This document shows positions 2,578-43,612 of a DNA stretch of 64,000 nucleotides, piece by piece. The notes below the pieces were generated by a model. It was not told the DNA's origin. It worked only from the letters and a program-made list of their open reading frames with translations, and ran no database searches. This stretch comes from Mya arenaria (Eukaryota > Mollusca > Bivalvia > Myida > Myidae). A program made the position numbers and the translations under genes. The stretch covers positions 48,864,949 to 48,928,948 of the forward strand of contig NC_069123.1 in assembly GCF_026914265.1 (NCBI RefSeq). The letters run 5' to 3'. Numbering within the stretch: the first letter of the stretch is position 1; each line of letters begins with the position of its first letter.

Positions 2578-5500
2578 TCAGTTGTATCCTCCGAAAGGGC
2601 GGCGGGAGCTACACCTGTTGGAGAAAAAATAAACGCTGCTTTTTTGTATTCAGGTTTTCTTCCTATCATAAGGTAAACACCAATGAACATTTGACTGCTA
2701 ATCTGTTATTATGCACCAGCTGAACACCGGCCATGGTTAGAGAAAGAAATTTCAGCTATATGATTTTAAAATAGTTCTATATAAAAATGAATTTAGTGTC
2801 AAGATACCATTAACTGAATTATGCATCTGAGACGTCTTGTAATGACTGTGTGGTATAACGTGACTTAGACTTCCGATACTTACTTGCCAAGCTCCCCGAG
2901 CGGGATGTCTCTGATGCCAATGCCAAGGCATGTTAGAGAGTTGCTGCACGGACAGTGGAGCTCCGCCACGCCCTTGGGTCGCCCGGAACCATTAGACACC
3001 AGGCAGTCTATAACAAGCACTTACACTACAATATTACCATTACACACAAATAACCTGACATGGAAGCACTTACAATACAACATTATCATTACACACAAAT
3101 AACCTGACATGGAAGCACTTACACTACAATATTACCACTACACACAAATAACCTTAACCTGACATGGAAGCACTTACAGTACAATATTACCATTACACGC
3201 AAATAACCTGACATGGAAGCACTTACAATACAATATTACCACTACACACAAATAACCTAACATGGAAGCACTTACAATTACAATATTACCACTACACACA
3301 AATAACCTGACATAGAAGCACTCACAGAACAATATTACAATTACACACAAATAACCTGACATGGAAGCACTTACACTACAATATTACCACTACACACAAA
3401 TAACCTTAACCTGACATAGAAGCACTTACAGTAAAATATTACCATTACACACAAATAACCTGACATGGAAGCACTTACAGAACTATATTACAATTACACA
3501 CAAATAACCTGACATAGAAGCACTTACACTACAATATTACCACTACACACAAATAACCTTAACCTGACATAGAAGCACTTACAGTACAATACAATATCAC
3601 CATTACACACAAATAACCTGACATAGAAGCACTTACAGAACAATATTACAATTACACACAAATAACCTGACATGGAAGCACTTACACTATAATATTACAA
3701 CTACACACAAATAACCTTAACCTGACATAGAAGCACTTACAGTACAATATTACCATTACACACAAATAACCTGACATGGAAGCACTCACAGAACAATATT
3801 ACCATTACACACAAATAACCTGACATGGAAGCACTTACAATACAATGTTACTATTACAGACATATAACCTGACATGGAAGCACTTACAGAACAATATTAC
3901 CATTACACACAAATAACCTGACATGGAAACACTTACAGAACAATATTACCATTACACACAAATAACTTGACATGGAATCACTTACAGAACAATGTTACCA
4001 TTACACACAAATAACCTGACATGGAAGCACTAACAATACATTGTTACCACTACACACAAATAACCTGACATGGAAACACTTACAGAACAATATTACCATA
4101 ATACACACATAACCTGACATGGAAGCACTTACAATACAATATAACCATTACACACAAATAACCTGACATGGAAGCACTTACAATACAATGTTACCATTAC
4201 ACACAAATAACCTTAACCTGACATGAAAGCACTTACACTACAATATTACCACTGCACACAAATAACCTGACATGGAAGCACTTACAATACAATATTACCA
4301 CAACACACAAAAAACTTACATGGAAGCACTTACAATACAATATTACCACAACACAAAAAAAACTTACATGGAAGCACTTACAATACAATGTTACCACAAC
4401 ACACAAAAAACTTACATGGAAGCACTTACAATACAATGTTACCATAACACACAAAAAACTTACATGGAGGCACTTACAATACAATGTTACCATTACACAC
4501 ACATAACCTGACATGGAAGCACTTACAATACAATGTTGCCATTACTCATAAAATAATTGACATGGAAGCACTTACAATACATTGTTACCACTACACACAA
4601 ATAACCTTAACCTGACATGGAAGCCCTTACAATACAATATTACCATTACACACAAATAACCTGACATGTAAGCAATTACAATACAATGTTGCCATTACAC
4701 ATAAATTAACTGACATGGAAAAACTTGCAATACAATGTTACCATTTAAATAAATAATTGGATTGAACCATTTTCCCACTTCTTACTTGAGTTATAGGTCC
4801 CCATGGGTTTGCAGGTTCCCGGTTGGTTAGTGCTGTCGAGGGAGCGCTTGCCTCTGCGTCGGAACTTGCTTACACAACACTCGTCTTTCTGGCAATCATC
4901 CGATTGGGAACATTCCCTCTCCCCACAGGTGCCTGCACATTGAACGAAGTAGAATATCATTTTATGATAAACAACACCAATGATGTTGAAAACAACAACA
5001 ACAAGAACAACAACCACAATAACCGCTACCCCATTATCAACTACAACAGTGGCCGTCACATTATAAACAGTCAAAATGTTTTCGCATTAAATGTCGGTGT
5101 GGTATTATAAGAATATGCTCAACATTCACACACATTTGAGGATAGCAGGAACAAGCAACTAGCTGTAGCTATCAATTAGATCAGCGTTTTGTGTTAAAGT
5201 CACTGCGACCAAGATATTTGACGTAATGATCTTAAAATCAATATGGGTTATCTGCTGTCTTGATCAACTTCCCGAATACATTTGAGGACCGTAGGACGAA
5301 GCATACTGTCGCTATCAATTCGACAAGTTTTTTATGTCCATGTTACCGCGACCATGACTTTTGACCTACTGACCTAAAATAATCAATATGGGTCATTTGC
5401 TGGTCATAACGAACCTCGCTGCCAAGTTTGAGGAACTTATGCCCAAGCGTATTCTAGATATCAATCTGACATGGTTTGGTTTACCGACGTACCGACATGT

Positions 5501-8272
5501 GCAAAGCCATCACTGTCGTATCTTTGAATGGGAGGGGGGAATAATACTAATAAGCACGTATAACGTATACAATAGAAATATATATATAGGATAACGCATT
5601 TATCTTATCAAAACTAAAGGTGGCCATTTTGCTGGAAAAACAGCACCAAGTATTACCGAAATACTTCAAAGAATACTGGTGAATTATTTTGTCCTTGATA
5701 TAAACCAATAGATACATGTATATCAAATATATCAGGGAAAGAATTCCAATGTTTGACACACGATTTTACTTACGAGGATTTAAAGATTTCACTATCTAAC
5801 CCCTTTTTTTATAACAGTGCCTTTTTGGCGTCTATAAATGCACAAGGCAATCGTCACTTAACAAAAGGGGCATGTTTAATTACATTCTGTACCGGATCCC
5901 TTCTGAAACCCAAACTGAGCATCCGGATGCAAGTTATTTTTTATCGAAACATTTGACGGCTCTTTTAGAGAGCACACGCGTAAATATTTCTCTAGATAAC
6001 TAAGGTAATGCCCCTGTTATTGCTGGTGACATTTACGCCACCTTTCTAATGTATCGGCATAACCAGGATAAAGGTAACCCCTGTAATTGCTGGTGTCATT
6101 TACGCCACCTTTCTAATGTATCGGCATAACCAGGATAAAGGTAACAAGTTCCGTCGAGGAGCACGTATCCATTCAATGACCGACCAAAATGTCAATAGTT
6201 TCGATTCAAATTTGATATGGTAAATTATCTTTCAGACATGAGGACTTCTGTTACCGGCAATATAACCTTTGATATAATCATGATAATATTAAAACGACTA
6301 ATTTGCATAATATCACAAATACAAAAACATGAATCAAGATACGCCTTCAAATAATTTTACGCGTGTACGTATACCTGTCCGGCCTTTTTGCGGTAGATAT
6401 ACTCCGTCCAGATTGCAGTTGATATCGCTTTTGCAGGGACAATAGCCTCCCAACAGTGGAATCATGACATTTAAAACCGTTTCCAAAGTTAAAAGATGAA
6501 AATTTGTGGATTTTGAAATTGTCGGTGAAACTATGGAAGAACACGGGGTCATCATGATCAAAAAGTCCAATCTTCATTTAGTGTTCTTTGACCTTTTATC
6601 CATATTTAAACTTCGAAGTTAGTTTTGATAAAACACATGGAATAATGGTAGGATCTCACAAGTACAATACAGTTGATACAAAACAAAGTTGAAACTACTT
6701 TAGGGGACATGTTTTGTTAAAATTTATAGAATTTATTTTTCATGTTAGATACAACCAACATTTTCAGCCATTGAAACGACTCATCGGCTTGTACTAAGTA
6801 CTACGCTTAATTTTCAACGATCAGCTGACATTTTAATCTCCGCCTAGCGTTCTTGTCACCGTATTTGGAAATGTACTTATCCTTTCCTAACTTTACGATA
6901 GTTTCCGAAAAGGTTAGGTTAAATAGATTTTGTTTCATGAAAAGGTTTAAATGAATACGCATTTTTACGAATAAAATTCCCCTAAGAGTAACAAATTATA
7001 CATAATTATTGTTCTTTGTAACTCTTAATGTTTAATGAAATTTATAATTTCGTACTCCTAAGGCAACATATCTTAAGACATTTTTATTCTATTATTTCAC
7101 TTCAACGTAGAAGTTATTCTTACCGAACGCATTGTGTATATACGGTTAAAGTAGATTTGTTATACATAGTGTCAGACGTGTCTTCAGTAGCTCTGGAGAA
7201 AAATCAACGGCATACGAAATACTTCAACATCTATTAATGCGCTGCACTTATTTTATCCATACACAATATAAGTGCCCAAAAGGTTTTCACTTGAATGATA
7301 TACAAACACAATCAATTCAAAAAGTAATTATTATTATAAAAGCTATTGACACACCTTTACCCATTATTTTAAAGTGCAGATGTTCGAAAGAGAAATGAAA
7401 TAGAATTATGCGCTCACTGTCTCCGACGGAGCCCAACTGCTCGCATTTTCCGTCGACGAACTTTCGGAGGTCGGGGGAGAGGGCAACGCTTTTGCCATTG
7501 AAGCTGATGCAACACTCGCCCTTCTTACAGTCATCGCTCGTTATACAGTATCCTTTCAATGCGCCTCGACCAGGAGCAGGAACGGCCTTCGCAACATATA
7601 AATAATTGTCTCTTTCTGTTGTTGCAGTAGCACCAAATTGAGCACCCACAACAACAACCACTAAAATACGTATTCACAAAGAAATCGGTATGTTTATAAA
7701 AATATCACTTAATATTTTGTTTTGGAGACAAAACAGTCTAGATCGAGCGATTTGGGTACTTTTATGTCTTGCTCCTGAATAAGGAGGGGCTGGCTAGCCA
7801 TGATGAATCAGTCAACCCGCAGGTCTATAAAATATTTTATGTCGGCATTATATTAAATTTTGGTATTGTTTCTGAATAAGGAGGGGCTAGCTTTGACAAG
7901 TTCAACTGAACTGGCAGACGTGACTAATAAACCACAGTGAGTGAAATGGACATTTATTCAATGTCAAATTAAATACGAATTTGACATCCTCGTAACTAGC
8001 ATATTGGGTGTCCAAACAACCGCCAGTGTAAAAACCGGGTACTTTTGTGAGCAATATTAGGTATGGTCTCACGTGCCCAATGATGTTGCTGTTGTGCTAA
8101 ACAACACAAGTATACGCGAGACAAAGTACGATTTTTATATTTAAAACATAAATGTCAGTAATTATAAAACATCTTTGCCTTTGCTAATGTTTGGTTGATT
8201 ACAGTAGCGATTTACCTGCACCGAGATGAAAACGAATCCAAGAAATAAAAACAGCATTTCATACCCATCCAT
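2578..8272 (-). CDS. Gene A: secreted two-domain prokineticin/astakine-like protein, domain 1 shortened
   Basis: Six exons read on the minus strand: 8216-8272, 7418-7586, 6375-6446, 4786-4932, 2884-3007 and 2578-2614, giving 606 bases and 201 residues. Exon 1 is a signal peptide (MDGYEMLFLFLGFVFISVQ) ending at a phase-0 intron, and the mature chain would start AVPAPGRGAL. Exon 2 carries the C, C, CC, C half of domain 1 (GYCITSDDCKKGECC). Exon 3 is shortened. Exon 4 opens with the tenth cysteine of domain 1 (TCGE) and then starts domain 2 (ECSQSDDCQKDECC). Exon 5 has HCPC, and the last exon reads KCSSRRPFGGYN then stop. Introns 2-4 are phase 1 and intron 5 is phase 2. Likely a secreted ligand or cytokine-like protein; the astakine/prokineticin assignment rests on cysteine spacing only, and colipase or DKK-type folds are alternatives. 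Domain 1 has lost cysteine 6, so it may fold poorly. Confidence 0.8.
3015..4745. repeat. Minisatellite in intron 4 of gene A, 49/55-base unit
   Basis: About 34 head-to-tail copies of a unit containing CCTGACATGGAAGCACTTAC and ACAATATTACCATTACACAC. The unit length is about 49 bases, or 55 where CCTTAA is added. The array fills the intron from next to the exon 5 acceptor almost to the exon 4 donor. Open frames inside it, such as a Cys-rich minus-strand frame at 4233-4514, are products of the repeat. Confidence 0.95.
5120..5520. repeat. TGACCT-containing dispersed repeat, intron 3 of gene A
   Basis: Two to three diverged units of about 170-200 bases. Each carries AACAAGCA...TAGCTATCAATTAGA, a block like GACCATGACTTTTGACCTACTGACCT, then AATCAATATGGGTCAT, ending at GGTTTACCGACGTACCGACATGTGC. 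The same repeat sits in intron 3 of B (17010-17420) and C (33980-34630), so it predates the gene duplications. I infer it is a common dispersed repeat; no coding capacity is seen. Confidence 0.75.
6004..6144. repeat. 67-base tandem duplication in intron 3 of gene A
   Basis: CCCCTGTTATTGCTGGTGAC at 6011 recurs almost exactly at 6078, each copy ending in CATAACCAGGATAAAGGTAA. Gene B (near 17910) has only one copy, so the duplication is specific to A. Confidence 0.9.
6375..6446 (-). CDS. Gene A exon 3, shortened by a deletion
   Basis: The exon reads YCPCKSDINCNLDG and ends in a GTATACG donor. In gene C the same exon is 120 bases and starts KCYVNPLSPGESGLFYDRC. In A the 5' part, including cysteine 6 and the original TTTTGTGTAG acceptor, is gone, and the sequence jumps into downstream intron sequence (CCCAACAGTGGAAT, also seen in B near 18427). 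A substitute AG (TTGGGAG) happens to keep the frame but has a poor pyrimidine tract, so skipping is possible. Both neighbouring introns are phase 1, so skipping would not break the frame. Confidence 0.6.
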
Positions 8273-8437
8273 CTTAAACTCCATGTATATACATATGTTG
8301 TGTATGAAACGTCGGGAAATAAATGTGGTGGAACGGAATTTGCATTTGTTTTCATAGCCTTAAAACTCTAATTTGATTGGCTAAATACATCCGGCTCGTG
8401 ATTGTTGACACGCAGATACATCTTCTTATGTACTGTC

Positions 8438-9330: not shown

Positions 9331-9489
9331 GGCAATTAACTAAGATCAAGCCTTAAATAGGTTTTAAACCTGATATATGTTGTGGTCTATGGGAATATGG
9401 TTTACAGACAACTGTTAATGATGTGATTGTTAATCCATCGAAGATACCATCCAAATATATTTAGAATGGGCACGTAAAATCTTTTAATA

Positions 9490-10470: not shown

Positions 10471-11162
10471 AATAATAAACTCATGCAAACCCAACATGTT
10501 TATCACGTAGTGTTGGTGTTTAAAGACCATTCAGCTCAAGGGGCATTCAATTGCAACTTAAGCTCTTTTACGATTTATATTTTATATAATAAACTGATAA
10601 TTCTTCACGTCAGCTATCTATAGTTTAATATATATTTTTTAAATAATAAAATGTCATTAGTTTGAAAATTATATTGCCACTCTTGCACCCACCAAAAGTA
10701 TGCTATAACACCTTTTACGAACACAATACTAGAAGATATCCATATTATGGTTGAAACATAGCCATTGACAAATTCTCTGATTACGGAAGTTGTTTTCGTA
10801 TACTAGAAAAGAATACACTTCTGTTGCAGAATTTGAAAAGTGTTTGATTCGGACATATGTCAACAGCTTTCTTTAACAAAAAGTTCTTGTGTATTGCAAA
10901 TAAGCATAACTAAAGAAGCAATCTTTCAACTCTTTAACACTGACAACCTTCATTCTTTGGTTGCAAGCATGGGTACGTTTTTGTAGTATGCATAAATATT
11001 AAAATTGTTTTCTTTAAGGACTGATTATGGAAAAAGACCTCTACAAAATTATTATAAAAAGCTCGATACCAATTCAAAATATATTTCTTTGAGCTGTGTC
11101 ATTTAAAGATGGCACTATCCTATAGCGAGGCAAAGGTCAAATAATGAAAACCCACCCTCTCC

Positions 11163-11732
11163 CTACGTCAGAGGACCTGTCGTAGTCTCTATCAGTGTCA
11201 GAGGAGCTGTCAAGAAGTCTCTTTCTGTGTCACAGGAGCTATCGTAGTCTCTCCTTGTGTCAGAGGAGCTGTCGTAGTCTCTCCTTGTGTCAGAGGAGCT
11301 GTCGCAGTCTCTCCCTGTGTCAGAGGAGCTGTCGTAATCTCTCCCTGTATCAGAGGAGCTATCGTAGTCTCTCCCTGTGTCAAAGGAGCTGTCGTAGTCT
11401 CTCCCTGTGTCAGAGGAGCTATCGTAGTCTCTTCCTGTGTCAGAGGAGCTATCGTAGTCTCTCCCTGTGTCAGAGGAGCTGTCGTAGTCTCTCCCTGTGT
11501 CAGAGGAGCTATCGTAGTCTCTCCCTGTGTCAGAGGAGCTGTCATAGTCTCTCCCTGTATCAGAGGAGCTATCGTAGTCTCTCCCTGTGTCAGAGGAGCT
11601 ATTGTAGTCTCTCCATGTGTCAGAGGAGCTGTCGTAGTCTCTCCCTGTATCAGAGGAGCTGTCGTAGTCTCTCCCTGTGTCAGAGGACCTCTCATAGTCT
11701 CTCCCTGTATCAGAGGAGTTGTCACGTTGAAA
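11163..11732. repeat. 30-base minisatellite (about 19 copies)
   Basis: Unit CAGAGGAGCTGTCGTAGTCT followed by CTCCCTGTGT, repeated with point differences. Because 30 is a multiple of three and the unit lacks stops in several frames, long frames appear on both strands; the minus one is a decapeptide repeat SSDTGRDYDS. The corresponding place in unit C (near 49150) lacks the array, so it expanded only here. I see no initiation context or splice partner that makes it a credible gene. Confidence 0.93.
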
Positions 11733-14870: not shown

Positions 14871-17800
14871 CTAAGGGCGGGAGCTACACCTGTTGGAGTG
14901 AAAGTAAACGCTGCTTTTTTATATCCAGGATTTCTTTCTATCATAAGGTAAACATCAATGTACATTGGACTGCTAATCTGTTATTATGCACCAGCTGAAC
15001 ACCGTTAATGGTTAGAGAAAGAAAACCAAACAAGCCAAACAAAACAAAAACGTACGGATTTATTGGCGATTTAGAACAAACTGTTGTACCTTAAATTCTA
15101 TCTACAGAGTTTTTGGTCATTCTATTTTTAGTTTTAAATTGCATCTCAGCAAAGCAAATGATTTTAAAATAGTTTCATATAAAAGTGAATAAAGTGCCAA
15201 GCTACCATTAAGAAGCGCCTCAGAATAAAACCTTAGACTCCCGTTGCTTACTTGCCAAGCTCCCCGAGTGGGAAGTCTCTGATGCCAATGCCATGGCATG
15301 TGAGATCGTTGCCGCACGGACAGTGGAGATCCACCTGGCCCTTGGGTCGCCCGGAACCATTAGACACCAGGCAGTCTATAACAATAAATTGACATTGAAG
15401 CGCTTACAATACAATATTACCATTACAGACAAATCTCCTGACATGGAAGCACTTACAGTACAATATTACCATTACACACATATAAACCTAACATGGAAGC
15501 CCTTACAATACAATGTTACCATTACACACAAATAACCTGACAAGGAAGCACTTACAATACAATGTCCGCCCGGTTAGCTCAGTCGGTCGAGCGTTGGACT
15601 GTTAATCGGGCAACCATGGTTCGATTCCCGGGCGGACCAGGTCACTTCAGTTGTGAGTGGTTATGAAATCCTTTCTACGACCATTCGCACTGTACCACTG
15701 CCCCTGGCATGTACAGAAGTTGTCAGTTCCTTGCAGAAGTGAAGGCACCTTGTACTGGTTCACCGCCAAGGATAGGTGTGCGGTGATTGAACTGTCACTC
15801 TTGGACCCTTCAATGTGCTCACGCCGGGACCCGGAGTATAAACTACTAACACTACCACTTACAATACAATGTTACCATTACACACAAATAACCTGACATG
15901 GAAGCACTTACAGTACAATATTGCCATTACACACATAAAACCTGGCATGGAAGCACTTACAATACAATATTACCATTACACACAAATGACTTGACATGGA
16001 AGCACTTACAATACAATATTACCATTACACACAAATAACCTGACATGGAAGCACTTACAATACAATATTACCATTACAGACAAATTACCTGACAAGGAAG
16101 CACTTACAATACAATATTACCATTACACACAAATAACCTGACAAGGAAGAACTTACAATACAATGTTACCATTACACACAAATAACCTGACATGGAAGCA
16201 CTTACAATACAATGTTACCATTAGACACAAATAACCTGACATGGAAGCACTTACAATACAATGTTACCATTACACACAAATAACCTGACATGGAAGCGCG
16301 TACAATACATTGTTACCATTACACACAAATAACCTGACATGGAAGCACTTACACTAGTACAATAACACACAAATAACCTGACATGGAAGCACTTACAATA
16401 CAATGTTACCATTAAACACACATAAACTGACATGGAAGCATTTATAATACACTGTTACCATTAAACACATATAAACTGACATGGAAGCACTTACAAGACA
16501 ATGTTACTATTTAAGACATATAAACTGACATGGAAGCACTTACAATACACTGTTACAACTAAACACATATAAACTGACATGGAAGCACTTACAAGACAAT
16601 GTTACCATTTAAGACATATAAACTGACATGGAAACACTAACAATACACTGTTACCATTAAACACACTCATAAACTGTCGTTAAATGATTGTATTGAACCA
16701 TTTTCCCACTTCTTACCAGAGTTATAGGTCCCCATGGGCTTGCAGATTCCGGGCTGCTTAGCGCTGTCGAGGGAGCGCTTGCCCTTGCGTTGGAGCTTGC
16801 TTACACAACACTCGTCTTTCTGGCAATCATTCGATTTGGAACATTTCCTCTCCCCACAGGTGCCTGTACATGTACATAGAACGAAGAAGAACACCAATTA
16901 TGTTGAAAACAACCACAATAACCACAATGACCACTACACCATCATCAACTACAACAGTGGCCGTCACATTATAAACAGTCAAGATGTTTTCGCATTAAAT
17001 GTCGGTGTTGTAGTTTAAGGTTATGATCAACATTCCCACACATTTGAGGATAGCAGGAACAAGCATACAAGCAGTAGCTATCAATTAGACCAGCGTTTTG
17101 TGTTAAAGTCACCGCGACCGTGACATTTGACGTACTGATCTTAAAGTCAATATGGGTCATCTCCTAGTCTTGATCAACTTCCTTAATACATTTGTGGACC
17201 GTAGGACGAAGCATACTGTCGCTATCAATTAGACAAGTGTTTTTTGTGACCATGTTACCGTGACCATGACTTTGGACCTACTGACCTCAAAATCAATAGG
17301 AGTCATTTGCTGCCCATGACAAACCTCCCTGCCAACTTTGAGGAACTTATGCTCAAGCGTATATTAGCTTTCAATCGCACAAGGTTTGGTTTACCGACGG
17401 ACCGACATGTGCAAAGCAATATACTGTTGCGAACGCCGGAGGGGGGGGGGGGGTGATGGCATTATAATAAGCACGTATAACGTATATAATACAAAATATA
17501 CATATGATAGCGCCTTTATCAAAACTTAAGGTGACAATTTTGCTGGAGAAACAGCTCCAAGTATTACTGAAATACTTAAAAGAATACTGGTGAATTATTT
17601 TGTCTTTGACATAAACCAATAGCTATATCAAAGATATAAGAGAGGGAATTCCAATGTTTGACACACAATTTTATTTAATAGGATTTTAAGATAATACCAT
17701 CTAACCCCTTTTTTAAAACCGTGTACGTAACAGTGCATTGTTGACGTCTATAAATGCACACGGCACTCGTTACTTAGAAAAAAGGGGCATATCTAATTAC

Positions 17801-20573
17801 ATTCTGTGCTAGATCCCTTCCGAAACCAAAACTGAGCATCCGGATGCAAGTTATTTTTATCAAACCAGTTGACGGCTCTTTTAGAGAGCACACTTACTAA
17901 GGTACTGCCCCTGTAATTGTTGGTGACATTTACGCCACCTTTCTAATGTATCGGCATAACCAGGTAATGGGAACAACTTCCGTTGAGGAGCACGTGTCCG
18001 TTAAATCACCGACCAAAATGTCAATAGTTTCGATTCAGATTTGATGGAGTAAAGTATCTTTCAGACATGAGGACTTCTGTTACCGGCAATATAGGCTTTG
18101 ATTTAATCATGATAATATTTAGAACGACTAACATTTGCATAATATCACAAATACAAAAACATGAATCAAGATACGCCTTCAAACATGTATAGGATAATTT
18201 TACGCGTGTGCACCTGTCCAGCCTTTTTGCGGTAGAAATATTCCGTCCAGTTTGAAGTTGATATCGGCGCAAAACTACACGACACAAATATCATGAAATA
18301 AGTCAGCTTAAAACAATAGTGCCATTGATCACTCACAGGAATCAGTGAGTTACGCATGACATTGATCAACTTCTTTGAACAAATAGCATATAGCTACCAA
18401 AATATATATATTGTTTTAGCTCCCAACCCCAACAGTGGAATTATGACATTTAAAACCGTTTCCAACGTTAAAATATGAAAAATTGTGGATTTTGAAATTG
18501 TAGGTTAGAACTATGGAAAAGCATGAGGGTCATCACGGACAAAAGTACAATCTTGCATGATTAAATGCTAAATCGTGCATTTTGATAAAAACAAATAATT
18601 AAAATTTCAATCAATTAATAGCTAAATTCTGTTCAAACAGACAAGTAAAAGTGATTTGAAATGAAAAATGTAATAAAATAACTTATTCTCACACTAAAAC
18701 AGATTTTGACAGTGGTGATGGATATTTTCAAAGGCCTTTTAAATCTTCAGTTTTTGCAAATGAACTTCAATTCAAACTTTGCTTTACTTGGAAATGATTT
18801 TTAATAAAAATAATAATTATTTTTTTATCAAAAAGTAGAAAGGGTTATCTCAAAACGCAAATTCCATCAATTCGGAGGTGACTTCTCAGTGTGATACACT
18901 AGAAATCAGTGATACATCGCCTGCAATTGGCCAATTGACTTTAGAATATATCGGAACCTTATTAAGTGGTCTCTGACCTTTTTCTCCATAATTAAACTTC
19001 AAATTCAGCTTTGATAAAACACATGCAATATGGTTAGGATCTCACAAATACAGTACAGTTGATACAAAACAAAATGAAAAATACTTTAAGGAACATGTTT
19101 TGTTAAACTTAATGAAATTATTTTTCATGTTAGATACAACCAACATTTTCAGCCAATGAAACGACTGATCGGCTTGTACTATGTACTACGCTTAATTTTC
19201 AACGATCAGCTGACTTTTTAATCTCCGCCTAGCGTTCTTGTCACCGTATTTGGAAATGTACTTATCCTTTCCTTACTTTGCGTTAGTTTCCGAAAAGGTT
19301 AGGTTAAATATATTTTGTTTCATAAAAAGGTTTAAATGAATACGCATTTTTACGAATAAAATTCCCCTAAGAGTAACAAATTATACATAATTATTGTTCT
19401 TTTTAACTCTTAATGTTTAATGAAATTTATAATTTCGTACTCCTAAGGCAACATATCTTAAGACATTTTTATTCTATTATTTTATTTCAACGTAGAAGTT
19501 ATTCTTACCGAACGCATTGTGTATATACGGTTAAAGTAGATTTGTTATGCATAGCGTCAGACGTGTCTTCAGTAGCTCTCGAGAACATTCAACGGCATAC
19601 GAAATACTTCAACATCTATTAATGCGCTTATCTTATCTTATCCATTCACCAAAGGTTTTCACTTGAATAATATACAAACACAATCGATTCAAAAAGTAAT
19701 TATTATAATAAGAACCGTTTACACACATTGAACCATTATTTTAAGGGGCAGATGTTCGGAAGAGAAATGAAACAAAAGTTTGCACTCACTGCCTCCGACG
19801 GAGCCTAACGGCTCGCACTTGCCGTCGACGAACTTGCGGAGGTCGGGGGAGAGGGCAACGCTTTTGCCATTGAAGCTGATGCAACACTCGCCCTTCTTAC
19901 AGTGCTCGCTCGTTATACAGTATCCTTTCAATGCGCCTCGACCAGGAGCAGGAACGGCCTTAGCAAATAAACACTGGATGTTAAATTGTCTCTGTCTTGT
20001 TTTTTTGCAGTAGCGCAATATGAACCCCCACAACAACAACCCCTCCTAAATGCAAATGAATCTGTATATTTATAAAAATATCATTTGATATTTTCTTGGA
20101 GACAAAACAGTCTAGATCGAGCGATTTGGGTACTTGTCTTGCTCCTGAATTAGGAGGGGCTAGCCATGACAAGTTCAACTAGAATGCGTGACGCGAATAA
20201 TAAACCACAGTGAGTGAAAATGACATTAATTCAATGTCAAAACTAAATACTAAATACGAGTTTGACATCCTCATAACATTTTATTCACGACTAGTATATT
20301 GGGCGTCCAAACAACCGCCAAATGTGTAAGACACCGGGTATTTTTGTGTGTAATATTGAGTGTGGTCTCGCAAGCGCAATGGTGTTGCTGTTGTGCTAAA
20401 CTACACAAGTATACCTGGGACACAGTACGGTTTTAATATCTTAAACATAAATGTTACAGTAATTATGAAAAATCTATGCCTTTGCTAATGTTTGGTTAAT
20501 AAAAGTAGCGATTTACCTGCACCGAGATGAAAACGAATCCAAGTAATAAAAACAGCATTTCATACCAAGCCAT
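14871..20573 (-). CDS. Gene B: two-domain prokineticin/astakine-like paralogue with a ruined exon 3
   Basis: Minus-strand exons: 20517-20573 (signal peptide MAWYEMLFLLLGFVFISVQ), 19790-19958, [exon 3 remnant 18214-18274], 16717-16863, 15252-15375 and 14871-14889. Leaving out the remnant gives 516 bases and 171 residues in frame; including it shifts the frame. Exon 2 reads GYCITSEHCKKGECC. Exon 4 reads TCGERKCSKSNDCQKDECC and QPGICKPMG. Exon 5 has HCPCGNDLTC. The last exon is only KCSSRP then stop. Domain 2 keeps all ten cysteines, while domain 1 loses cysteines 6 to 9. The splice sites of the other exons are intact. Either a truncated but functional secreted protein or an early pseudogene. 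Its promoter has a 4.9-kb insertion directly upstream of TATA. Confidence 0.7.
15385..16675. repeat. Minisatellite in intron 4 of gene B, about 49-base unit
   Basis: The same unit family as 3015-4745 in gene A, about 20 copies, interrupted by a SINE at 15565-15855. Toward the right end the units diverge to a TAAACTGACATGGAAGCACT form. No 55-base variants with the extra CCTTAA are seen, unlike in A. Confidence 0.93.
15564..15855 (+). mobile_element. tRNA(Asn)-headed SINE inserted in the minisatellite
   Basis: The head 15564-15638 folds like a tRNA: acceptor arms GTCCGCC and GGCGGAC, A box TTAGCTCAGTCGG, B box GGTTCGATTCC, and anticodon GTT at 15601-15603. A body of about 215 bases follows, ending in ACTACTAACACTAC. 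It is flanked by a 16-base target duplication, CACTTACAATACAATG, at 15549-15564 and 15856-15871. A G-G mismatch in the anticodon stem and the attached body argue against a working tRNA. The exact conserved head and duplication suggest a fairly young insertion. Confidence 0.85.
17010..17420. repeat. TGACCT-containing dispersed repeat, intron 3 of gene B
   Basis: Counterpart of 5120-5520, with ACCGTGACCATGACTTTGGA, CTACTGACCTCAAAATCAAT and the GTTTACCGACGGACCGACAT end, followed by a run of G. Confidence 0.75.
18214..18274 (-). pseudogene. Gene B exon 3 remnant
   Basis: The 61-base remnant keeps an acceptor-like TGTGTCGTGTAG and a GTGCACACG donor, but has lost the middle of the exon present in gene C (the part holding cysteines 6 to 8). 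Its INCN motif has become INFK. Its length is not a multiple of three, so inclusion would throw exon 4 out of frame. Exons 2 and 4 both use phase 1 here, so skipping restores a continuous frame. Confidence 0.75.
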
Positions 20574-26480: not shown

Positions 26481-26489
26481 ACAATAATT

Positions 26490-32267: not shown

Positions 32268-35200
32268 TCATGGTAGGAAGGGTCCTCTGAAAGGGCGGCG
32301 GAAGCTACACCTGTTGGAGAAAAAATAAACGCTGCTTTTTTGTATTCAGGTTTTCTTCCTATCATAAGTTGAACATTATTTTTTGTGCACACATAAACTT
32401 CTTTATGTCATTGTGCAACGAATATTTCATTAGCAGTGCCTTTATCAGTCAGCTGACCGCGATCAGTCAATCAGGAGATTTGTTAAGGCACGCGGGCTTA
32501 TCAGGTCACTTGGCCTCTCTGTAAATCTCTGTTAATCAATCAGATTGCTTCAGCCATCTCCTTTGTTTACTTCGGCATGATAGAAACGTTCGACAATTTG
32601 GTTTAATGTTTTCAACTAACCACCACCTCCATCTCCCCCCCCCCTCTTTTTCATCTTGAAAAAAAGGAATTTGACTGTCTAGGGTGCCACTCATTTAACT
32701 TTGTATCACTTGATTCTTTGTTACCTGTGTTTCATCAAAATATATTATTTCCCTGTTTATACATGTACTGCCATAATATTACGTTATTTACAACTTTGTA
32801 CTTTTCTGTCTATCATAACGGGGGCGGTTTACCCACCCAGATATTGTATTACGGGAAACATAACGTATTCGTGTACATTCGACTGCTAATCTGTTATTTG
32901 CAACAGCTGAACACCGGCCATGGTTAGAGAAAGAACACATAGAATTGTGCCAAAACAAAAACAATGTACGTATTTAGTGGTAATTAAGAAAAAATGACCA
33001 TGACCTTTGACCTACTTGCCTTTAATTCTATCTACAGAGTATTTGATCATTCATTTTTCAGTTTTTAATTGCTTTCCAGCTGGATGCTTTTAATTAAGTT
33101 CTTCATTAAAAAGAAGTGTCAAGCTACCATTTACAGAAGTATGCAGACTTAGACATTTGCTTATCAATTTGTGGTATAACGTAACTTTGTTTGTTCCAAG
33201 ATACGGCCGGAGGATAAACCCTAAGACCCCCGTAACTTACTTGCCAAGCGCCCCGAGCGGGATGTCTCTGATGCCAATGCCACGGCATGTGAAAGCGTCG
33301 CCGCACGGACAGTGGAGGAACACCCGGTCCTTGGGTCGCCCAGAACCATTAGACACCAGGCAGTCTATAACAACAAAAAGACACGGAAGTACTTACAATA
33401 CAATATTACCAGTATACAAGTATAAACTGTAATTAAATAATTCGTTTGAACCCTATCCCATTTCTTACCAGAGTTAGTGGTGCCCATGGGCTTGCAGATT
33501 CCCAGCTGGTTAGCGCTGTCGAGGGAGCGCTTGCCAATTGGCCGGAACTTGCTTACACAACACTCGTCGTTCTGGCAATCATCCGATTGGGAACATTCCT
33601 TTACTCCACAGGTGCCTGCACATTAAACAAAGTAAAATACCATTTGATATTAACAACAAAAATTATGCTAAAAAAACCCCACAACATTTTTTATTACACC
33701 AGCATTAAATACAACACAACAGTGGCAGTCACACTATACACAGTCAACATGCTTTTTGTTTGAAATTCATCCGCAGTTGATACATTTCATTTAGTTTGAT
33801 AGTTATATAAAATAGTCAGATGTTCATCCTGATAAAATGTACTATGCACATGCAAGTATATACTTTTATGTCTCGTACTGGTGGAAATAGCCAAACCATT
33901 TTTAGAGCAGAAGAGATGCTTATCAAACTTTCATTTCCCACTTAGTGCGTACATTTCGTCATTTCACATTGAAAGTCTGTGGGGTAATTTAAGATTATGA
34001 TCAACATCCGGTCACGTTTGAGGATGGCGGGAACAAGCATACTAGCTGTAGCTATCAATCAGACAAGCTCTTTGTGTTCAGAGTCACCGTGATCGTGTCA
34101 TTTGACAAATTGATCAGGGACGGGTGCATAATTTGACGATAGAGGATGTGTAACGTAGGGGTCGTAAGCTTTTGACTTACGTCCATCCCTCATAACCGAA
34201 CCTTATTTGGGATTAAGTGTTGGCAGGATTTACCCCTTCCCAACAAAGTTTGTTCTACAATTTCTAGTCTGAAATGGGAAATTTAAGGCGTAATAATGGA
34301 CGAGTTTAGGGGAGGGGGAGGGTGCGCCCCCTGGACCCGCAAGTGTTGATGCTTAAAATAAAGGTGGGTCATCTGCTGGTCATGACCAACATCCCTAACA
34401 CATTTGATGTTCGTAAGCACATCGTAGCTGTCAATTATACATTTATTTTTGTGTCCATATGCAACGCGACCATGACCTTTGACCTGCATACCTAAAATCA
34501 ATAGGGGTCATTTGCCAGTCATGAGCAACAACCCTGCCGAGTTATAGGACATAAGGCCCAAGCGTTTTCTAGTTGTAAATCGGACAAAGTTTGGTTTACC
34601 GACGGACCGAAATGTGCAAAGCAATATATATGTGATATATTTGGCTAACAGTTTTTGTACAAATGATTTGCTCATTTTCTACAAGCCATTTACAAAACTT
34701 AAGGTGAACATTTTGCTAGTAACAGCTCCAAGTCTCCCAAAAATAGTGCAAATAATTCTGGGAATTATTTAGTTCATAGACATATTAAAAATATCAGAGA
34801 GGTAATTCTAATGTTTGACACACAACTTTACTACAGAGTACGATGCTCGAAATGAAATAAGGACGTAAAGTGTCTTTTTGAGTTCTATAAATCGTTACTT
34901 AGAAAAAAGGGCAAGTTTAATTACATTATGAAGAATGAAATTTGCCTCTTTTGTGCTGGATCCATTCTGAAATCCAAACTGAGAATCCGAATTGAATATT
35001 TTTTTCATCAAACCAGTTGTCGGCTCTTTTAGTGACATGCAAATATTTTCCCTAGATTACTAACTAATGTAAGGCCGCTGTAGTCGTTGGTCTCATTTAC
35101 GTCATCCTACATATGTATTAGCATGACCAGGATTAGAAGAAACAAGTTCTGTCGAGAACCATCTTAAACGTTTTCGTTAAATGACCGACCAAAATATCAA

Positions 35201-38200
35201 TAGTTTCGATAAAGAAATAATTTATTAAATTATCTATCGGATATGATTATTACTGTTACCGGCAATATAACCTTTTATTTAATCATGATTGTAAAGGAAC
35301 ACCTGCATAATGACAAAAACACAAGATACGCCTTCAAACATGTAAAGGATCATTTTACGTGCGTGTACCTGACAAGCCTATTGGCGGTAGAATTATTCCG
35401 TCCGAATTGCAGTTGATATCGCTGCTGCAGGGACATCGGTCATAGAACAGGCCCGACTCCCCGGGGGACAACGGATTCACATAGCACTCTACACAAAACA
35501 AATATCACGCATTAAGTCAGCTTAAATCAATAGTGCCATCGAATAAGGAATAAGTGAGGTGAGCTTTGAACAAATAGCAAATAGGTCTAGAGCATATTAC
35601 ACCAATTCGGAAGTGCTACTCAGTGGTAAATGCCTTTTTGCTTTTCATCTATACATGGTAGAGAATCAAAGCATGGTTATACCATCTCAGTGGATGACCA
35701 TTGGCTACTTATAGATTTATAAGTTTTAAAGCTGAATTCGTTGTGATTTCAAAAACAGGCTGAAAATGCTAGACCTACTTTTTTGTTTCCATTTTACCGC
35801 ATTGTTTGTACTCCAACACCAGTTGTAGCCACTATCGAATCAACAGTGGTTACGTTCAACCAGTTTTATTTATTTTCTTGTAGAATACCTTTGTTCAATG
35901 TTAAGTTCAAAAGGTTTAACTTTTTTCCCATATAAGATGTTGGGGGTCTTGAAACACTAGAATTCAGTGTTTTCGCGTGCACACTGGTCAACTGACTATA
36001 GAATCTACAGGACTTTTTAGTTGTCTCTGACCTTTAAGGGTAAACTCGGGGTTACTTAAAACTCGTTGTTTTAGCATTTTTGACCCCCAACAGTGGAATT
36101 GTACATTTAGAACCGTTTCCATCTATTAAATATGAAAAACTGCCATCTATTAAATATGAAAAACTGTGGGTTTTGAAAATGTCGGTTTAAACTATGGAAG
36201 GGCATGGGGTCGGGCATTGGAGTCATCGTAGGCTTAAGTATTTTCTTGTATGATTTTATGTTTAATCGTTTGTTTTGATAACAAATAATTTCAATCAATA
36301 ATTAGCTAAAGTCTGTTCAGACTGAAAAGTAAAAATGATTAAAAGTGATTTTTTTTAAAACACAAACAAACCTTTTGGGCTACTTTTTTGTACTTTTATC
36401 CTCCTAAAATTTTCAAAGGTCTCCAAAATTTCAGGTTTTCAAGACAACTTCAAATCAAACCATGCTTTTCTAAGACAGTTTATTTACACAAAGAGTCAAC
36501 ACGATCATAATTATCAACTCTGGAGAGATTAAATATTTTCTGTCGTTATTATTAATGATAAAGTGTTTCCTGTTTATAAAATTTCTATTTTTAGTTTTTT
36601 TGCGTCTTCTAACACGGATTTTTAATTTAACGAATTTACTGGTACATTTATAAAAACATCAACAAACTAAACATACTACACTAAAAATGACACTTCGGTT
36701 ATGTTTTTACATGTTTTATTTAATATCTGTTACAATAAGGGAATTGTTCCGTCTATTTGGAGTAAATCGATTATAAATCCAATCCCAAAGTCTTCAGCCA
36801 CTGACCTAAGAGAACCTATGTCTTACAGAGGCATTGCACTTGCTTCCGTCATATATAAGCTGTATTGTAATATTTTAGATGCACGCCTCAGTGGTTGGGT
36901 GGAGTCGAATAATCTGCTTGTTGATGAACAAAACGGCTTTCGGAAACATAGGAGCACCACTGACCATATTTTATCTTTAACCTCTCTCATTGATAATAGA
37001 AGAAAAAAGTAATTAAGTACATTATGCTCCTTTATTGACTTTTGTAAAGCGTACGATTTTATTAACAGAGATAAACTTTGGGCTCGGCTTAGGGATTGTG
37101 GCGTGTCGGGTAAAATGTTGATAGCTATTAAGTAAATTTATTCATCTGTTCTATCTTGTGTAAGAATTAACGGTTATAAAACTTATTGGTTTGAGACACA
37201 CTGCGGTCTCAGTCAAGGTTGTATTTTGTAACCACTGTTGTTTAACATGTACATCAATGATCTTGCTGTATATTTGAAATCATTTGGTAAAGGTGTAACA
37301 CTCGACAACGAATGTATATGTATTATGTTATACGCAGATGATATTGTTTTGTTAACTGAAAATTCAGCTGGTTTTTATTAAGTGAGTGCCTTATATGACT
37401 GGTGTTGTATGAATGACATGGAGATAAACTCTAGTAAAAGCAGTGTTGTTCATTTTAGACCAAAGGCTCATGAAAGAACAAGTACAATTTTCAAATGTGG
37501 TCAAAATACTATTGGTGTTGTTGAGAGATACACATATCTTGGTTTAGTTTTGCATGAGTTCTTAAACTGGAATATTACTGCCAAGGCAGTAGCTCAGAGT
37601 GCAAGCCGGGCATTGGGCCTGGTTATTGCCAAGTGCAAGTTAATTGGGGGGGGGGTCCCTTTGATGTCTACACTAAGCTTTTTTTATTCTGTTGTGTGGC
37701 CTGTTATTAACTATAGGATAGCTATATATGGTAATAAGTCTTTTCCTGTATACATGCTGTATTTAACAGAGCCATGCGGTTTTTCCTTGGTGTGGGTAAA
37801 TATACTACCATTGCTGCAGTTATAGGAGAAATGGGGTGGTTGCCATTAGAAGTCCGACATTGGAAATCTATATGTACCTACTGGTCGCGCCTTTCCAACC
37901 TTGGTGTGTCACGGCTCAATAAACGTATTGCACTCTGGGCTGGTGCAAAGGGGAGTAACTCATGTCGTAACTGGTTTTATTTGGTTAAGCAGAAACTGTG
38001 TTCTCTGAACCTGGATATTTATTGCAGTATTGAAACCGTTATACCTAAACATGCTATTTTAAGTAAAGTAGAGGAGTTGTTGCTGCATCAGTTTACGCAG
38101 GGCTGGTTGGCTCAGATTAATAGTACAGTTGATACATCAGGTAAAGGGCGCAACAAATTGCGTACATATTGTTTGTTGAAAACTGAATTTGTTACAGAAA

Positions 38201-41200
38201 AGTATTGTAAAAAAATCAAGCCGCTGCATCATAGGTCGGCAATGAGTAAATTTAGAAGTGGTGTAGCTCCTCTACGAATTGAAACTGGCAGATATGAAAA
38301 CTTACCGGTTGAAGCTAGAAAATGCCCTTTTTGTGATACTGTAGAAAACGAGGCTCATGTTATCCTTGATTGTAGAGCATATGATGATTACCGTGTTACA
38401 TTGTTTGCTAAGGCCGTTGAAACTGATAACTTATTTCTAACTGTGAGTAATACTGAAAAGTTGAAATTTATACTCTGTAATTCTGCATTGCTACGACTTG
38501 CTGCCAAAACCTGTAATTTGATTTTAAAGAGAAGACAGTTTTATCTGTGTAAATAGTCATTGCGTTCATGTATATACTTTTAACTATGTAGATGTTTACT
38601 TATTGTACTTTGTGATATTCTAATAGGTCACACAAATGATATTGGCTCCTTGTTATTAGATGAACCTCCTATATAATGGTCGGTAAATCCAATTTCACCT
38701 GCTTGTTTTAATGTTTCTTGGAGCTTTTGTCAGTATTTAGTCGGTTGTTTCACTTTTTTCTATGGGCTTTTAAAGCAAATTTTATGCTTATTGATGGACA
38801 AAAATTGTTTGTGTGGCATATTAGTGTTTAATTTGTAAGTACAGTTGTTGTTTTTTACCAGTCAGTATCAGTCACATATTTTATAACAATTCAGTATTTA
38901 TTTTGTATTAATATGTTCTGTGTATTTGTCAAATAGTCTCTTGTAATTCTGTATAGAATGGCCATATACTTGTTTTATGTGTTGCATGTAACTTTTAGTA
39001 TGTATATGGACGATACTCTAATAAAGATATAAACCTACTAAATCACTTCATTCATTTCAAAATTAATGAAAAATCAATTAACAAGTTTGTTGATCAGTTG
39101 TTCACAGTTAGTTTTTAAGGGTCGGCAGCGAGGCAAAGTCGATTAATGGACACAATTTTAAATGTTTTAAACAATCAATTTCAAAACATTCTATTTAGTC
39201 TTGAGGTTCAATATTTAACAAGCATGATTCATATATCCGTTGCAACATGAAAAGCTGTAATTGAGAGTTGAGCATTTTTTACGAAATAATATTTTATCAG
39301 ATTTCCAATAAAAAAGCATTTACGTTTTCCCGGAAATGTCTTAATACAAAAAGAATACATTTGTGAATCAAATTTATCGGAACCGCCCAATCAACAATGT
39401 CTTGTGGCTTTGTGTTGATTGCAGCTATTTAAAAAAAAAAAAGATATATGCATTTTTGTAACTCGGAAATGAATTTTACCACGAATTGTCATTATTTTTC
39501 TGAATAACTTTCTTATTTGACAAGATATCATCGAGGTCGCTCAAGACATTGTTGAATATGAAGTCTGGGGCATTTTGACATTAAAACGAAGTACTGATGT
39601 CGACAGACTTTTTTCGTAATGATGTGAATGCTATTTTATCCAAAATCTGATAAAATCTTCTTTTGTAAAATTTGTTAAACTCCTAACTGACCCAAAACAT
39701 GTCGCCAAGAATAAATGGTTTACTCCCCAAAAAGATCGTTTCTCGAAACTTAATAAAACATGTATTTTTATAAATGTTTTAGTTTTTGACCTTTCTCACC
39801 CACTTTTGCATTACTGCTGGCCTTTAAAAAGGGAGTAAGTTGTTTGTCCAAAAGTCTATTTTCTACAAAAAAATCAGCGCGATTTATTAGAAATAATTCT
39901 AAGTGGCTATATTTAGACCCACGCGAGGGTAACACTAATAATATCACCCGGTGTACAGGGTTATAACAGGATAACAGCACGGATTGGCTAATGTCGTGCA
40001 AATGAGAATATAACATGGGCAGGTCTGAGGTATAATAAAATATGTTACCCTATGAAACAATATTTTATATAATAATTTAACATTTTCCGACATTCTTAAA
40101 ATGCTACAATTGAATGTTATTTCGCGGTAGATCGTTGTTACAAGTTAATTGTATATACTCAAATCTGAAAAAAGCAGCTTTTAGGTCAAATGTCGCTACA
40201 TTTTACATGTCAAATGGCAATAAAGGAAATAATTGTCATAACGCGACTAGGTAAATGCATACATTTATACATCGGGCACTGTTTTGAATATGTCATTCAT
40301 TTATAACAACTCAAAATGGTAATCACTTTGACATTAAATAAGTGTACACAAATGGTGCAAAATAAAACAAAGACGAAATTATAGTTATGATGAAATAGTT
40401 GGTATGATTAATGACAATGTTAACCATTTAACCCATGTAAGCTTGATCTGTGGAAAAACGGTACGGGAGAAATACTACTAATAATTTGATTTAAAGAAAA
40501 TATTGTATATGTTTAAACATAGATTTGGTTTGGAAATAAACCAAACTTAACGTTTATTAAAACTTTCGTTTATTAGAGAAATAGCAAACTTCTTCTTAAA
40601 AGGTTTTCTTGAAGCTGAATGTTCAAACATAAATATGCCTCTCGCTTGAACAATGTACAAACAAATAACAAGGGAAAACACAAAAGCTCGAACACAAAAG
40701 ATTAAGAAAGTTAATGAAATAAAAATTAGAGGGACAAGCCCGGTTTTCAAAACACTTCAAACGTTTAGCACATTCAACACTTCAAACGTTTAGCACATTC
40801 AACATTCAACACTTCAAACGTTCAGCACATTCAACACTTCAAACGTCCAGCACATTCAACACTTCAAACGTTCAGCACATTCAACACTTCAAACGTTCAG
40901 CACATTCAACACTTCAAACGTCCAGCACATTCAACACTTCAAACGTTCAGCACATTCAACACTTCAAACGTTCAGCACATTCAACACTTCAAACGTTCAG
41001 CACATTCAACACTTCAAACGTTCAGCACATTCAACACTTCAAACGTTCAGCACATTCAACACTTCAAACGTGCAGCACATTCAACACTTCAAACGTTCAG
41101 CACATTCAACACTTCAAACGTTCAGCACATTCAACACTTCAAACGTTCAGCACATTCAACACTTCAAACGTTCAACACAACAACGTTTATCAAACTATTA

Positions 41201-43612
41201 TTCATCATTTACGGTTGTAATTGTTAGATAAATATCATTAGAGAAAATTCTTTCCTTAGAAATCTCAAACATGAAATTCATCGCAGAGACTACTTGAAAT
41301 ATATAAGGCATAAAATTATCACCTGGCTGTAGTAAAAACAACTCTACCCTTATTTGCTTGCGCGACTTTTAGCTGGACTATTTTCAGTGAGATTCGTCAG
41401 TCATTTTTTAGCGCGCTTTCGGAACTTTGTGTTACTTTCCGAAGTGGTTTGGTTTAACATATTTATTTCATTAAAAGGATAAATTGGATGTTATTAATAT
41501 GTTTTTTCATGAATAAAATCCCCCTTAGTGGTACAAATATTCACTTTCGTTTGTTAACTTGTGTTTGATTTTGTAACTATGAATAATTCTTACATTTTAT
41601 TGTTTTTACTATAACTTTTAATGTTTAATGAATTTTGTAATTTCGTACTCATAACGCAACATATCTAAATGTCTTTAACATTCTTATTCCTTTATTTCAC
41701 TTCGACGAAGAAGTAAATAAATTATTTCTGAAGGCATTGTGTATACATTGTATACGGTCAAAGTAGATTTGTTCTGCACATTGTGACAACAATAGATTGT
41801 CAAAAGTGTCTCTAGACACTCTTGGGAACCAGCAACGGCAAACGAAATACTACAACATGTATTATGCGGCTACATTAATCTTATCCATACACAAATAAAG
41901 TGTCCAAAAGGTTTTCACTTATACAAAATATAAACACAATCAATAGAAAGTAATTATTATAATACATTTACACACAATACACATTTACCAATTATTTAAA
42001 ATGGCAGATATTCGGAAGAGAAATGAAACATAATTATGCGCTCACTGTCTCCGACGGAGCCCAACTGCTCGCATTTTCCGTCGACGAACTTGCGGAGGTC
42101 GGGGGAGAGGGCCTCCCTCTTGCCACGGGGGGTGTTGAAGCTGATACAACACTCACCCTTCTTACAGTCATCGCTCGTTATACAGTATCCTTCCAGTGCG
42201 CCTCGACCAGGGGCAGGAACGGCCTTAAAATTAAACAGTTGATGTTTTATTGTTTTTTGTTCTTTTTGTAAGCAACAGTAGCGCTGAAATACAAACAACA
42301 AAAAACACCAAAATACTTATCTACAACACAATTGGTAAATGTCTTTAAAGCCTCAGTGCCACTTAGGATGAAATAAGTAAAAGTGAGTATATAACTATGA
42401 TAGAGTCTGATATGATGTCTGATAAATTCCCGAGGTCCTCACGATGCTATACTTAACAGAAATGTATGGGAAATACCAACGAAATTTCAAACTGGTTCAC
42501 TAACTTACTTTGAGATAATTAAGCAGATAAGTGGGCGGAGAATGGCAACAAGGTTTTATTGAAAAATAGCAGATAGGTATTCGCTCATGTTTGTGTAAAA
42601 TGCACTATTGGTGTATGACGAAATAAAGTGTGGCAAATCCTTAGTTAACGCCAAGATGTTAAATTTGGAACTGTTCAGCAAATGTTGATATTTGCTTAAA
42701 TATTCATTTTGAAGACCACATTTTTATATATTCAACAGCTTTGTTGTTGCGTAATTGGTTTATAGACATTATCACGTGATGTTATCAATGACCAATATAT
42801 CAAATTATCCATGTTAATCTAAGCAAGACTTCGTGGTCTAGTGGATTTTTGTATAATATGTTTGTAAGATTGCCCTTTGTTTCATTTAAAATGGTGGTGT
42901 CAAAGAAAAGTTTAAGTGTTCATTTTAAGCTAAATGCTGCCTTCCGACATAGCATATATGACATAATTTATCACGTGGTATACACACACTGTTTTCTGCA
43001 ATTTCGATGTCATAAAGTTAACTTATGATGGAATAAGTGTGCACAGATTCATTGACGGGAAAACTATTTTAGTTAAAAAATGCAAATCATCAGTATATAA
43101 AGCAACATAGAATCTAAGTCATTCATAAGTCACGTGATATGCAAACTTCGTAATGACGTTGTGTGCGCTAAATTTAGATTTGCTTTCTGTTTTGTTGCAT
43201 TTTGTAATTGCGATAAATGCATTTTTTAAATTATAATTCTCGGTGTTAATAAAGGTCTAGAAGTTCAAAGACGTCATTTGGATGTGCATACAAATAGATA
43301 AATCACTAAAACAAAATGAGACTTTAAATATCATTTTATACTTTCCACGAGATAAACAGGCTAGATCGAGCCATTCGGGTACTTTTGTGGGCAATATTGA
43401 TATGCTCTTAAACGTGCGCAATTGTGTTGCTGTTGTGCTAAACTACACACGGTAACGTGTGAGACACAGTTTTAATATCTTAAATATAAATGTTACAGTA
43501 ATTATGAAACATCTTTGCCTTTGTTAATGTTTGGTTAATAAAAGTAGCGATTTACCTGCACCGAGATGAATACGAATCCAAGAAATAAAAACAGCATTTC
43601 ATACCCAGCCAT
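32268..43612 (-). CDS. Gene C: intact secreted two-domain prokineticin/astakine-like protein
   Basis: Exons on the minus strand: 43556-43612, 42046-42223, 35369-35488, 33469-33615, 33241-33364 and 32268-32310, totalling 669 bases and 222 residues. All have GT donors and AG acceptors in matching phases (0, 1, 1, 1, 2). Signal peptide MAGYEMLFLFLGFVFISVQ; the mature start AVPAPGRGAL falls on the first exon border. Domain 1 cysteines: GYC, DDC, ECC, GKC, KCY, RCPC, INC and the TC that opens exon 4. Domain 2: KEC, DDC, ECC, GIC, DC, HCPC, FTC and the KC of the last exon, so ten each. Both domains have GKR in the loop after CC (RGKREALS, IGKRSLDS). The tail is KCSFRRPFRGPFLP. Probably an extracellular signalling protein; receptor and role are unknown. 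This is the reference copy of the array. Confidence 0.87.
33365..33468 (-). other. Gene C intron 4 with a single minisatellite unit
   Basis: Only 104 bases long. It contains one unit resembling the A and B minisatellite (GACACGGAAGTACTTACAAT, then ACAATATTACCA). This is the probable ancestral state from which the arrays in A (about 1.7 kb) and B (about 1.3 kb) grew. Confidence 0.8.
33980..34630. repeat. TGACCT-containing dispersed repeat, intron 3 of gene C
   Basis: Counterpart of 5120-5520 and 17010-17420, longer here with about three units. CATGACCTTTGACCTGCATA lies near 34470, and the block ends at GGTTTACCGACGGACCGAAA. Confidence 0.7.
35369..35488 (-). CDS. Gene C exon 3, the only full-length copy
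   Basis: Codes for the second half of domain 1, KCYVNPLSPGESGLFYDRC followed by PCSSDINCNSDG. The acceptor is TTTTGTGTAG and the donor GTACACGC. The pattern C, C.C, C matches cysteines 6 to 9 of the ten-cysteine fold, and the exon is phase 1 at both ends. Confidence 0.85.
36690..39050 (+). mobile_element. LINE (non-LTR retrotransposon), 5'-truncated, in intron 2 of gene C
   Basis: Lies antisense to gene C. The reverse transcriptase part has IINPIPKSSATDLREPMSYR, DEQNGFRKHRSTTDHILSL, SQGCIL and LYADDIVLL (YADD at about 37331-37342), then ERYTYLGLVLHEF of the thumb. A C-terminal part (37774-38556) ends with the zinc-finger-like CPFCDTVENEAHVILDC. The endonuclease half is missing. Stops interrupt the RT at several points (for example just after 37010 and near 37230), so it is dead. 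A 3' UTR ends near TCTAATAAAGATATAAACCT. Clade not determined. Confidence 0.85.
40751..41180. repeat. 25-base minisatellite in intron 2 of gene C
   Basis: About 17 copies of CATTCAACACTTCAAACGTT plus CAGCA, with T/C and C/G variants. Absent from the corresponding introns of A and B, so it arose in unit C. Confidence 0.95.

Follow-up and report, generated by a model that had tools for sequence, protein, structure and literature searches.

A predicted two-headed ten-cysteine protein, probably related to the AVIT/colipase group, in a tandem array of the bivalve Mya arenaria

Does a tandem array of the bivalve Mya arenaria encode secreted proteins with a doubled prokineticin-type domain, and in how many of its copies? 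The question is raised by a stretch of 64,000 nucleotides (NC_069123.1, positions 48,864,949 to 48,928,948; hereafter the window), in which a first-pass annotation had described three paralogues (genes A, B and C), each with two successive ten-cysteine domains. Prokineticins and astakines act as secreted signals with ten cysteines, normally in a single domain. This norm, also stated in the annotation, agrees with the literature passages on both families, but Dickkopfs carry two such domains (PMC6078440). At the sequence level, the two-headed protein appears to be real and old, a variant within a known fold family; gene C is its one intact copy in the window.

The three paralogues were indeed present, as mutually homologous minus-strand units at approximately 2.4-8.5 kb (gene A), 14.6-20.7 kb (gene B) and 32.1-43.8 kb (gene C) of the window. 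They have a six-exon layout in common, which is intact in gene C and damaged at exon 3 in genes A and B. Thus, the doubling of the ten-cysteine domain holds for gene C, whereas domain 1 is incomplete in the other two; since exon 3 carries different deletions in A and B, the description as three doubled ten-cysteine proteins is true for one of the three. When exons 2, 4 and 5 were compared with 150 nt on each side in the three gene pairs, exon identity exceeded that of both flanks in 9/9 comparisons, marginally so in one (A-B exon 5, 91% vs. 90% upstream), and repeats or insertions in some of the flanks depress the flank values.

The frame of gene C, first built by hand from GT/AG sites, was confirmed: six exons with GT/AG borders splice to a single open frame of 681 nt from the first ATG (43624), TGA included. 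Counted from the second ATG (43612), it spans 669 nt including TGA, with its last base at 32268, and encodes 222 residues. The 669 bases of the annotation therefore close with a stop codon and have none inside. Translation more likely starts at the second ATG, because gene B has no upstream ATG and the context AAGATGG surrounds the second ATG in all three genes.

Exon 1 of gene C (43556..43624; minus strand, as all exons of the array) contains both ATGs and the signal peptide, which was judged by eye, and ends in a phase 0 donor; AVPAPGRG follows directly. The rest of the product consists of two ten-cysteine domains (20 cysteines in total), both with the order C,C,CC,C,C,CxC,C,C. Domain 1 is encoded by exon 2 (42046..42223; Cys1-Cys5, with a PRGKR loop) and exon 3 (35369..35488; Cys6-Cys9), its Cys10 being located at the start of exon 4 (33469..33615). 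Exon 4 continues with Cys1-Cys5 and the IGKR loop of domain 2, which is completed by exon 5 (33241..33364; Cys6-Cys9) and exon 6 (32268..32310; Cys10, a basic tail and the TGA stop). Between the last cysteine of domain 1 and the first of domain 2 stand four residues.

Is the doubled form confined to the array? We searched the whole genome (1.216 Gb in 18 contigs: the mitochondrial C18 and 17 others, with the array on C2) using the peptides of exons 2-5 of gene C and exons 2 and 3 of the gene found thereby, and scored the best candidates. At least one locus exists beyond A, B and C: gene D, on contig C3 (17419254-17422224). It is a diverged two-domain paralogue, in which exons 2-5 were recognised with phases equal to those of gene C at the shared borders. 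We describe it from these four exons, the signal exon being a weak candidate that occurs twice and the last exon a candidate. Exon 3 was missed by the query with gene C exon 3 and was recognised by inspecting the stretch that lies between the exons already matched; used as a query itself, it matches itself alone among the candidates scored. Exon 4 has two possible donors, six bases apart and equal in phase.

Gene D also informs on the age of the doubling. Over 139 codons of exons 2, 4 and 5, genes C and D differ by a nonsynonymous divergence (dN) of ~0.44 and a synonymous divergence (dS) of ~2.7, which is near saturation; the ratio of ~0.16 suggests long constraint. The first domains of both genes are 46% identical (C1-D1, 42/92 columns) and the second ones 53% (C2-D2, 43/81), against 35% between the two domains of gene C (C1-C2, 30/86). 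A tree groups C1 with D1 with a support of 0.995, and therefore the domain doubling predates the separation of C and D. A two-domain gene with equal intron phases on another contig likewise implies that the doubling is old. The tandem array A-B-C would then stem from local duplication, after its separation from gene D.

The cysteine order of gene C is found in C1, C2, A2, B2 and D2 (the Cys10 of D2 coming from the candidate exon), and is missing from domain 1 of A, of B and of D, which keeps eight cysteines. In D1, ETC replaces ECC and PLC replaces RCPC, so that Cys3 and Cys7 are absent. In the MIT1-like fold, a disulfide joins these two cysteines (PMC9918498), and their joint absence may be taken as a modest sign of the colipase/AVIT disulfide plan.

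At the profile level, the two halves are homologous (domain 1 vs. domain 2 in hhalign: probability 98.3%, E 1.7e-14). We built a joint profile from six domains (C1, C2, D1, D2, A2 and B2), leaving out domain 1 of A and B because they are damaged, and compared it with the Protein Data Bank (PDB). The best match was U33-theraphotoxin-Cg1b (2n8k, E 4.8e-5), and MIT1 (1imt, E 0.09), Bv8 (2kra, E 1.2) and Dkk2 (2jtk, E 6) also appeared. The AVIT/colipase group made up 4/7 rows; the other three were two SART3 chains and one short salivary protein. A resemblance arising from cysteine spacing alone was considered and rejected: 0/2 shuffles that kept the cysteine columns matched this group, the first giving one unrelated chain at E 0.52 and the second nothing. 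From these data, we infer that both heads of gene C would adopt the AVIT/colipase fold, with putative disulfides C1-C4, C2-C5, C3-C7, C6-C9 and C8-C10. After the cysteines, the most conspicuous common feature is a basic G-[KR]-R motif in the Cys4-Cys5 loop, present in 6/6 aligned domains; it might contact a receptor, be cut by a convertase or serve as the reactive site of a protease inhibitor. Thus, the doubled prokineticin/colipase-type domain of the first-pass annotation is supported in genes C and D by the joint-profile matches, the homology of the halves and the loss of Cys3 and Cys7, but full doubling does not extend to A and B.

Should the gene C protein be called a prokineticin? In the formal sense, no. 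AVITG is regarded as an essential prokineticin feature and Trp24 as receptor-binding (PMC8877203); the predicted mature protein lacks an N-terminal AVITG(A), and gene C encodes no Trp at all. In Pfam scans, PF17556 (MIT-like atracotoxin) reached 15.8 bits with domain 1 (cutoff 27.5) and Colipase_C 18.3 bits (cutoff 23.7), Dickkopf_N did not appear among the matches listed, and the NCBIfam scan returned 0 families. Scanned singly against Pfam, in a listing without cutoffs, the six domains gave the plant SCRL family (E 0.0072) ahead of MIT_LIKE_ACTX (0.0099), followed by EB (0.13), CBM_1 (2.3) and Prokineticin (4.8), each in 1/6 domains. Whole-genome searches in six frames, exon by exon, found nothing over cutoff for PF06607 (no match), PF04706 (15 matches, best E 0.137) or PF17556 (6 matches, best E 0.77); these negatives say little on absence, because of the exon-wise reading and because the same searches were positive in 0, 0 and 1 of 14 control genomes, respectively. 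The gene C protein resembles the AVIT/colipase group and is probably related to it, but we do not file it as a prokineticin.

Our favoured reading, held with middling confidence, is that the product of gene C is a secreted, two-headed ligand of prokineticin/astakine-like type with two adjacent AVIT/colipase-type heads. Several results weigh against it. No Pfam family reached its cutoff with gene C or its two domains, and PF06607 was not even listed. PDB similarity other than that to 2n8k is weak. Gene C alone had a best PDB match at E 0.071, with an unrelated evasin second (0.17). The search with each domain profile did yield rows of the AVIT/colipase fold for both, but with weak values: best E 0.15 for domain 1 (2/2 rows of this fold) and 0.0096 for domain 2 (1/4 rows). 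The shuffle control consisted of two shuffles, and the clue from Cys3 and Cys7 is modest because a random loss of two cysteines would hit a bonded pair with probability 5/45. Finally, exon 5 shows dN > dS in 3/3 pairs of A, B and C, on few changes, and constraint there is therefore relaxed or diversifying.

If the ligand reading is right, the protein would be secreted and signal bivalently outside the cell in prokineticin/astakine-like fashion, with hemocytes or digestive tissue as examples of targets, and its two heads would engage one receptor twice or two receptors simultaneously. No agreed receptor is known for the prokineticin-like peptides of protostomes. Astakines of crustaceans and oyster promote hematopoiesis (PMC8398477). 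Prokineticin-like peptides are reported from nearly all sampled lophotrochozoan phyla, with 35 transcripts in the monoplacophoran Laevipilina (PMC6425005); the oyster relatives named in the passages are Cragi-prokineticins 1-5, and signature motifs have been reported for the clades of astakines and lophotrochozoan prokineticins (PMC11521371). On the best reading of the sequence, signalling would rank first and protease inhibition second as the function of the gene C protein.

Could the heads then be inhibitors? The protein may be a two-headed serine protease inhibitor, in which each head would block a trypsin-like protease with its basic G-[KR]-R loop as reactive site. The occurrence of this motif in every aligned domain suits this explanation, as does the spider peptide 2n8k as best PDB match, and the MIT1-like spider peptide NcTI inhibits trypsin with a KD of ~30 nM, docking pointing to a Lys-Arg loop (PMC9918498). 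However, the NcTI loop need not lie at the same place relative to the cysteines, the loop in domain 1 of A and B is shortened and reads GKS, and dibasic sites suit proprotein cleavage too. We consider this reading unlikely, though it is the main rival to the ligand.

The dibasic sites themselves lead to the next alternative, a proprotein in which a convertase cuts at GKR or GRR within the heads, releasing disulfide-linked chains or short active peptides. RGKR or RGRR occurs in C1, D1 and A2, and GKR in B2, C2 and D2; we take RGKR and RGRR to fit a furin-like consensus. Against this, the loop that contains the site belongs to a domain which disulfides should hold together, and domain 1 of A and B has lost the site. 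Such processing seems quite unlikely to us.

What, then, of genes A and B, and does their state extend to gene C? Exons 1, 2, 4, 5 and 6 are open in both. In gene A, exon 1 (8216..8284) encodes the signal peptide, exon 2 (7418..7586) Cys1-Cys5 of domain 1, exons 4 (4786..4932) and 5 (2884..3007) Cys1-Cys5 and Cys6-Cys9 of domain 2, and exon 6 (2578..2614) Cys10 and the stop. About 53 nt are missing from the 5' end of exon 3, including the acceptor and Cys6; the remnant (6375..6446) can be kept in an open frame solely through a weak internal AG, at which we placed its presumed 5' end. Gene B has the same arrangement: signal peptide in exon 1 (20517..20573), Cys1-Cys5 of domain 1 in exon 2 (19790..19958), Cys1-Cys5 and Cys6-Cys9 of domain 2 in exons 4 (16717..16863) and 5 (15252..15375), and Cys10 with the stop in exon 6 (14871..14889). 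Its exon 3 (18214..18274) keeps the acceptor, but 61 nt remain of 120; Cys6 and Cys7 are lost, Cys8 is doubtful and Cys9 is Phe in the frame of the relatives, and with the remnant retained the reading frame changes and runs into stops. Since both genes remain open to their stops when exon 3 is omitted, an exon-3-skipped product is possible. We propose that A and B are either decaying or yield a product that skips exon 3 and consists mainly of head 2.

By dS, A and B form the closest pair (0.12, against 0.21 and 0.22 with C), and they have in common the shortened Cys4-Cys5 loop of domain 1, where GKS stands and G-[KR]-R is lost. The whole array, gene C included, might be a decaying tandem duplication without present function, as the differing lesions of exon 3 and the dN/dS ratios in exons 2, 4 and 5 (A-B 0.57, A-C 0.40, B-C 0.48) would suggest. 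However, gene C is fully open and keeps its splice sites and 20 cysteines, and the comparison with gene D points to long constraint; decay of the entire array is decidedly unlikely.

The last alternative, a Wnt antagonist of diverged Dickkopf type whose two domains are cysteine-rich (CRD1 and CRD2), can draw on the two homologous colipase-type domains of that family, thought to be duplicated (PMC6078440), on the weak PDB matches to Dkk1 and Dkk2 and on a dkk1/2/4 orthologue reported in the bivalve Ennucula tenuis (PMC6425005), but we regard it as highly improbable because both gene C heads are AVIT-ordered with an early vicinal CC, neither being of the CRD1 type (Dkk4 CRD1 pairs C1-C3, C2-C4, C5-C8, C6-C9 and C7-C10), and no notable linker exists, four residues standing where Dickkopfs have a flexible unstructured linker before CRD2 (PMC6078440), besides the missing Dickkopf_N.

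Returning to the two-headed ligand, a broader proposal can be made tentatively: that, at least in this clam, there is a family of bivalent AVIT-fold ligands apart from the Dickkopfs, which arose by an old intragenic doubling and whose heads are under differing selection, one of them partly dispensable, and bridge two receptors or proteases. The partial dispensability of one head is suggested by the disulfide missing in gene D and the head part missing in A and B. A naturally two-headed form, together with a paralogue that lacks one cysteine pair, would give a handle on which head or loop acts, and would hint at a doubling of the colipase-type domain outside the Dickkopfs too.

The surroundings of the genes were also inspected. 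Arrays of a 49-bp minisatellite (window 3015-4745 and 15856-16600) lie in intron 4 of genes A and B, and intron 4 of gene C is short, with at most a fragment of such an array. Cysteine-rich minus-strand frames at 3.0-4.7 and 15.4-16.6 kb derive from this minisatellite and were dropped as non-genes. Other tandem repeats are a 30-bp array at 11148-11878 and a 25-bp array at 40723-41231. Between genes B and C (28399-30640), an RVT_1 frame (E 3.2e-14) is followed by a tyrosine-recombinase-like one (Phage_integrase E 2.7e-5, below cutoff), presumably a DIRS-type element. Upstream of gene B, transposase remnants (21452-22815; DDE_1 E 1.1e-10 for 22402-22812) resemble pogo/Tigger by eye. Intron 2 of gene C holds frames resembling a non-LTR reverse transcriptase (36671-38556), and a scan of one piece of these (37738-38553) gave nothing in Pfam. 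Outside the array, the mitochondrial contig C18 has 17,947 bases with its long protein frames read as one-stranded; among them, the COX2-like frame at L026 2947-4395 is unusually long, at 482 aa with an internal insertion.

How does the two-headed protein compare with known systems? A literature search for doubled prokineticins found none among the matches listed, most subscription journals being outside its scope, and the passages of the Platynereis prokineticin precursor account (PMC3890597) do not mention doubling. With the prokineticin/AVIT family (PF06607; MIT1 1imt, Bv8 2kra), gene C has in common a secreted (here predicted) product, the ten-cysteine order and profile similarity, and it differs by its two heads, the lack of an AVIT N-terminus and of Trp, and a longer basic loop between Cys4 and Cys5. 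Astakines and lophotrochozoan prokineticin-like peptides have ten cysteines, mostly signal peptides and no AVIT start; we liken them to gene C by description, and a doubled form goes unmentioned in the passages on them. The MIT-like atracotoxin group (PF17556), with NcTI and with 2n8k, which we take to be a member, has the same cysteine order and provides the best profile match (2n8k, E 4.8e-5), but these are single-head spider peptides, unlike the two-headed gene C. Finally, Dickkopf 1/2/4 resemble it in their pair of colipase-type domains, presumed to stem from a duplication, with their own CRD1 disulfide plan and a flexible linker in between (PMC6078440), whereas both heads of gene C are AVIT-ordered and adjacent.

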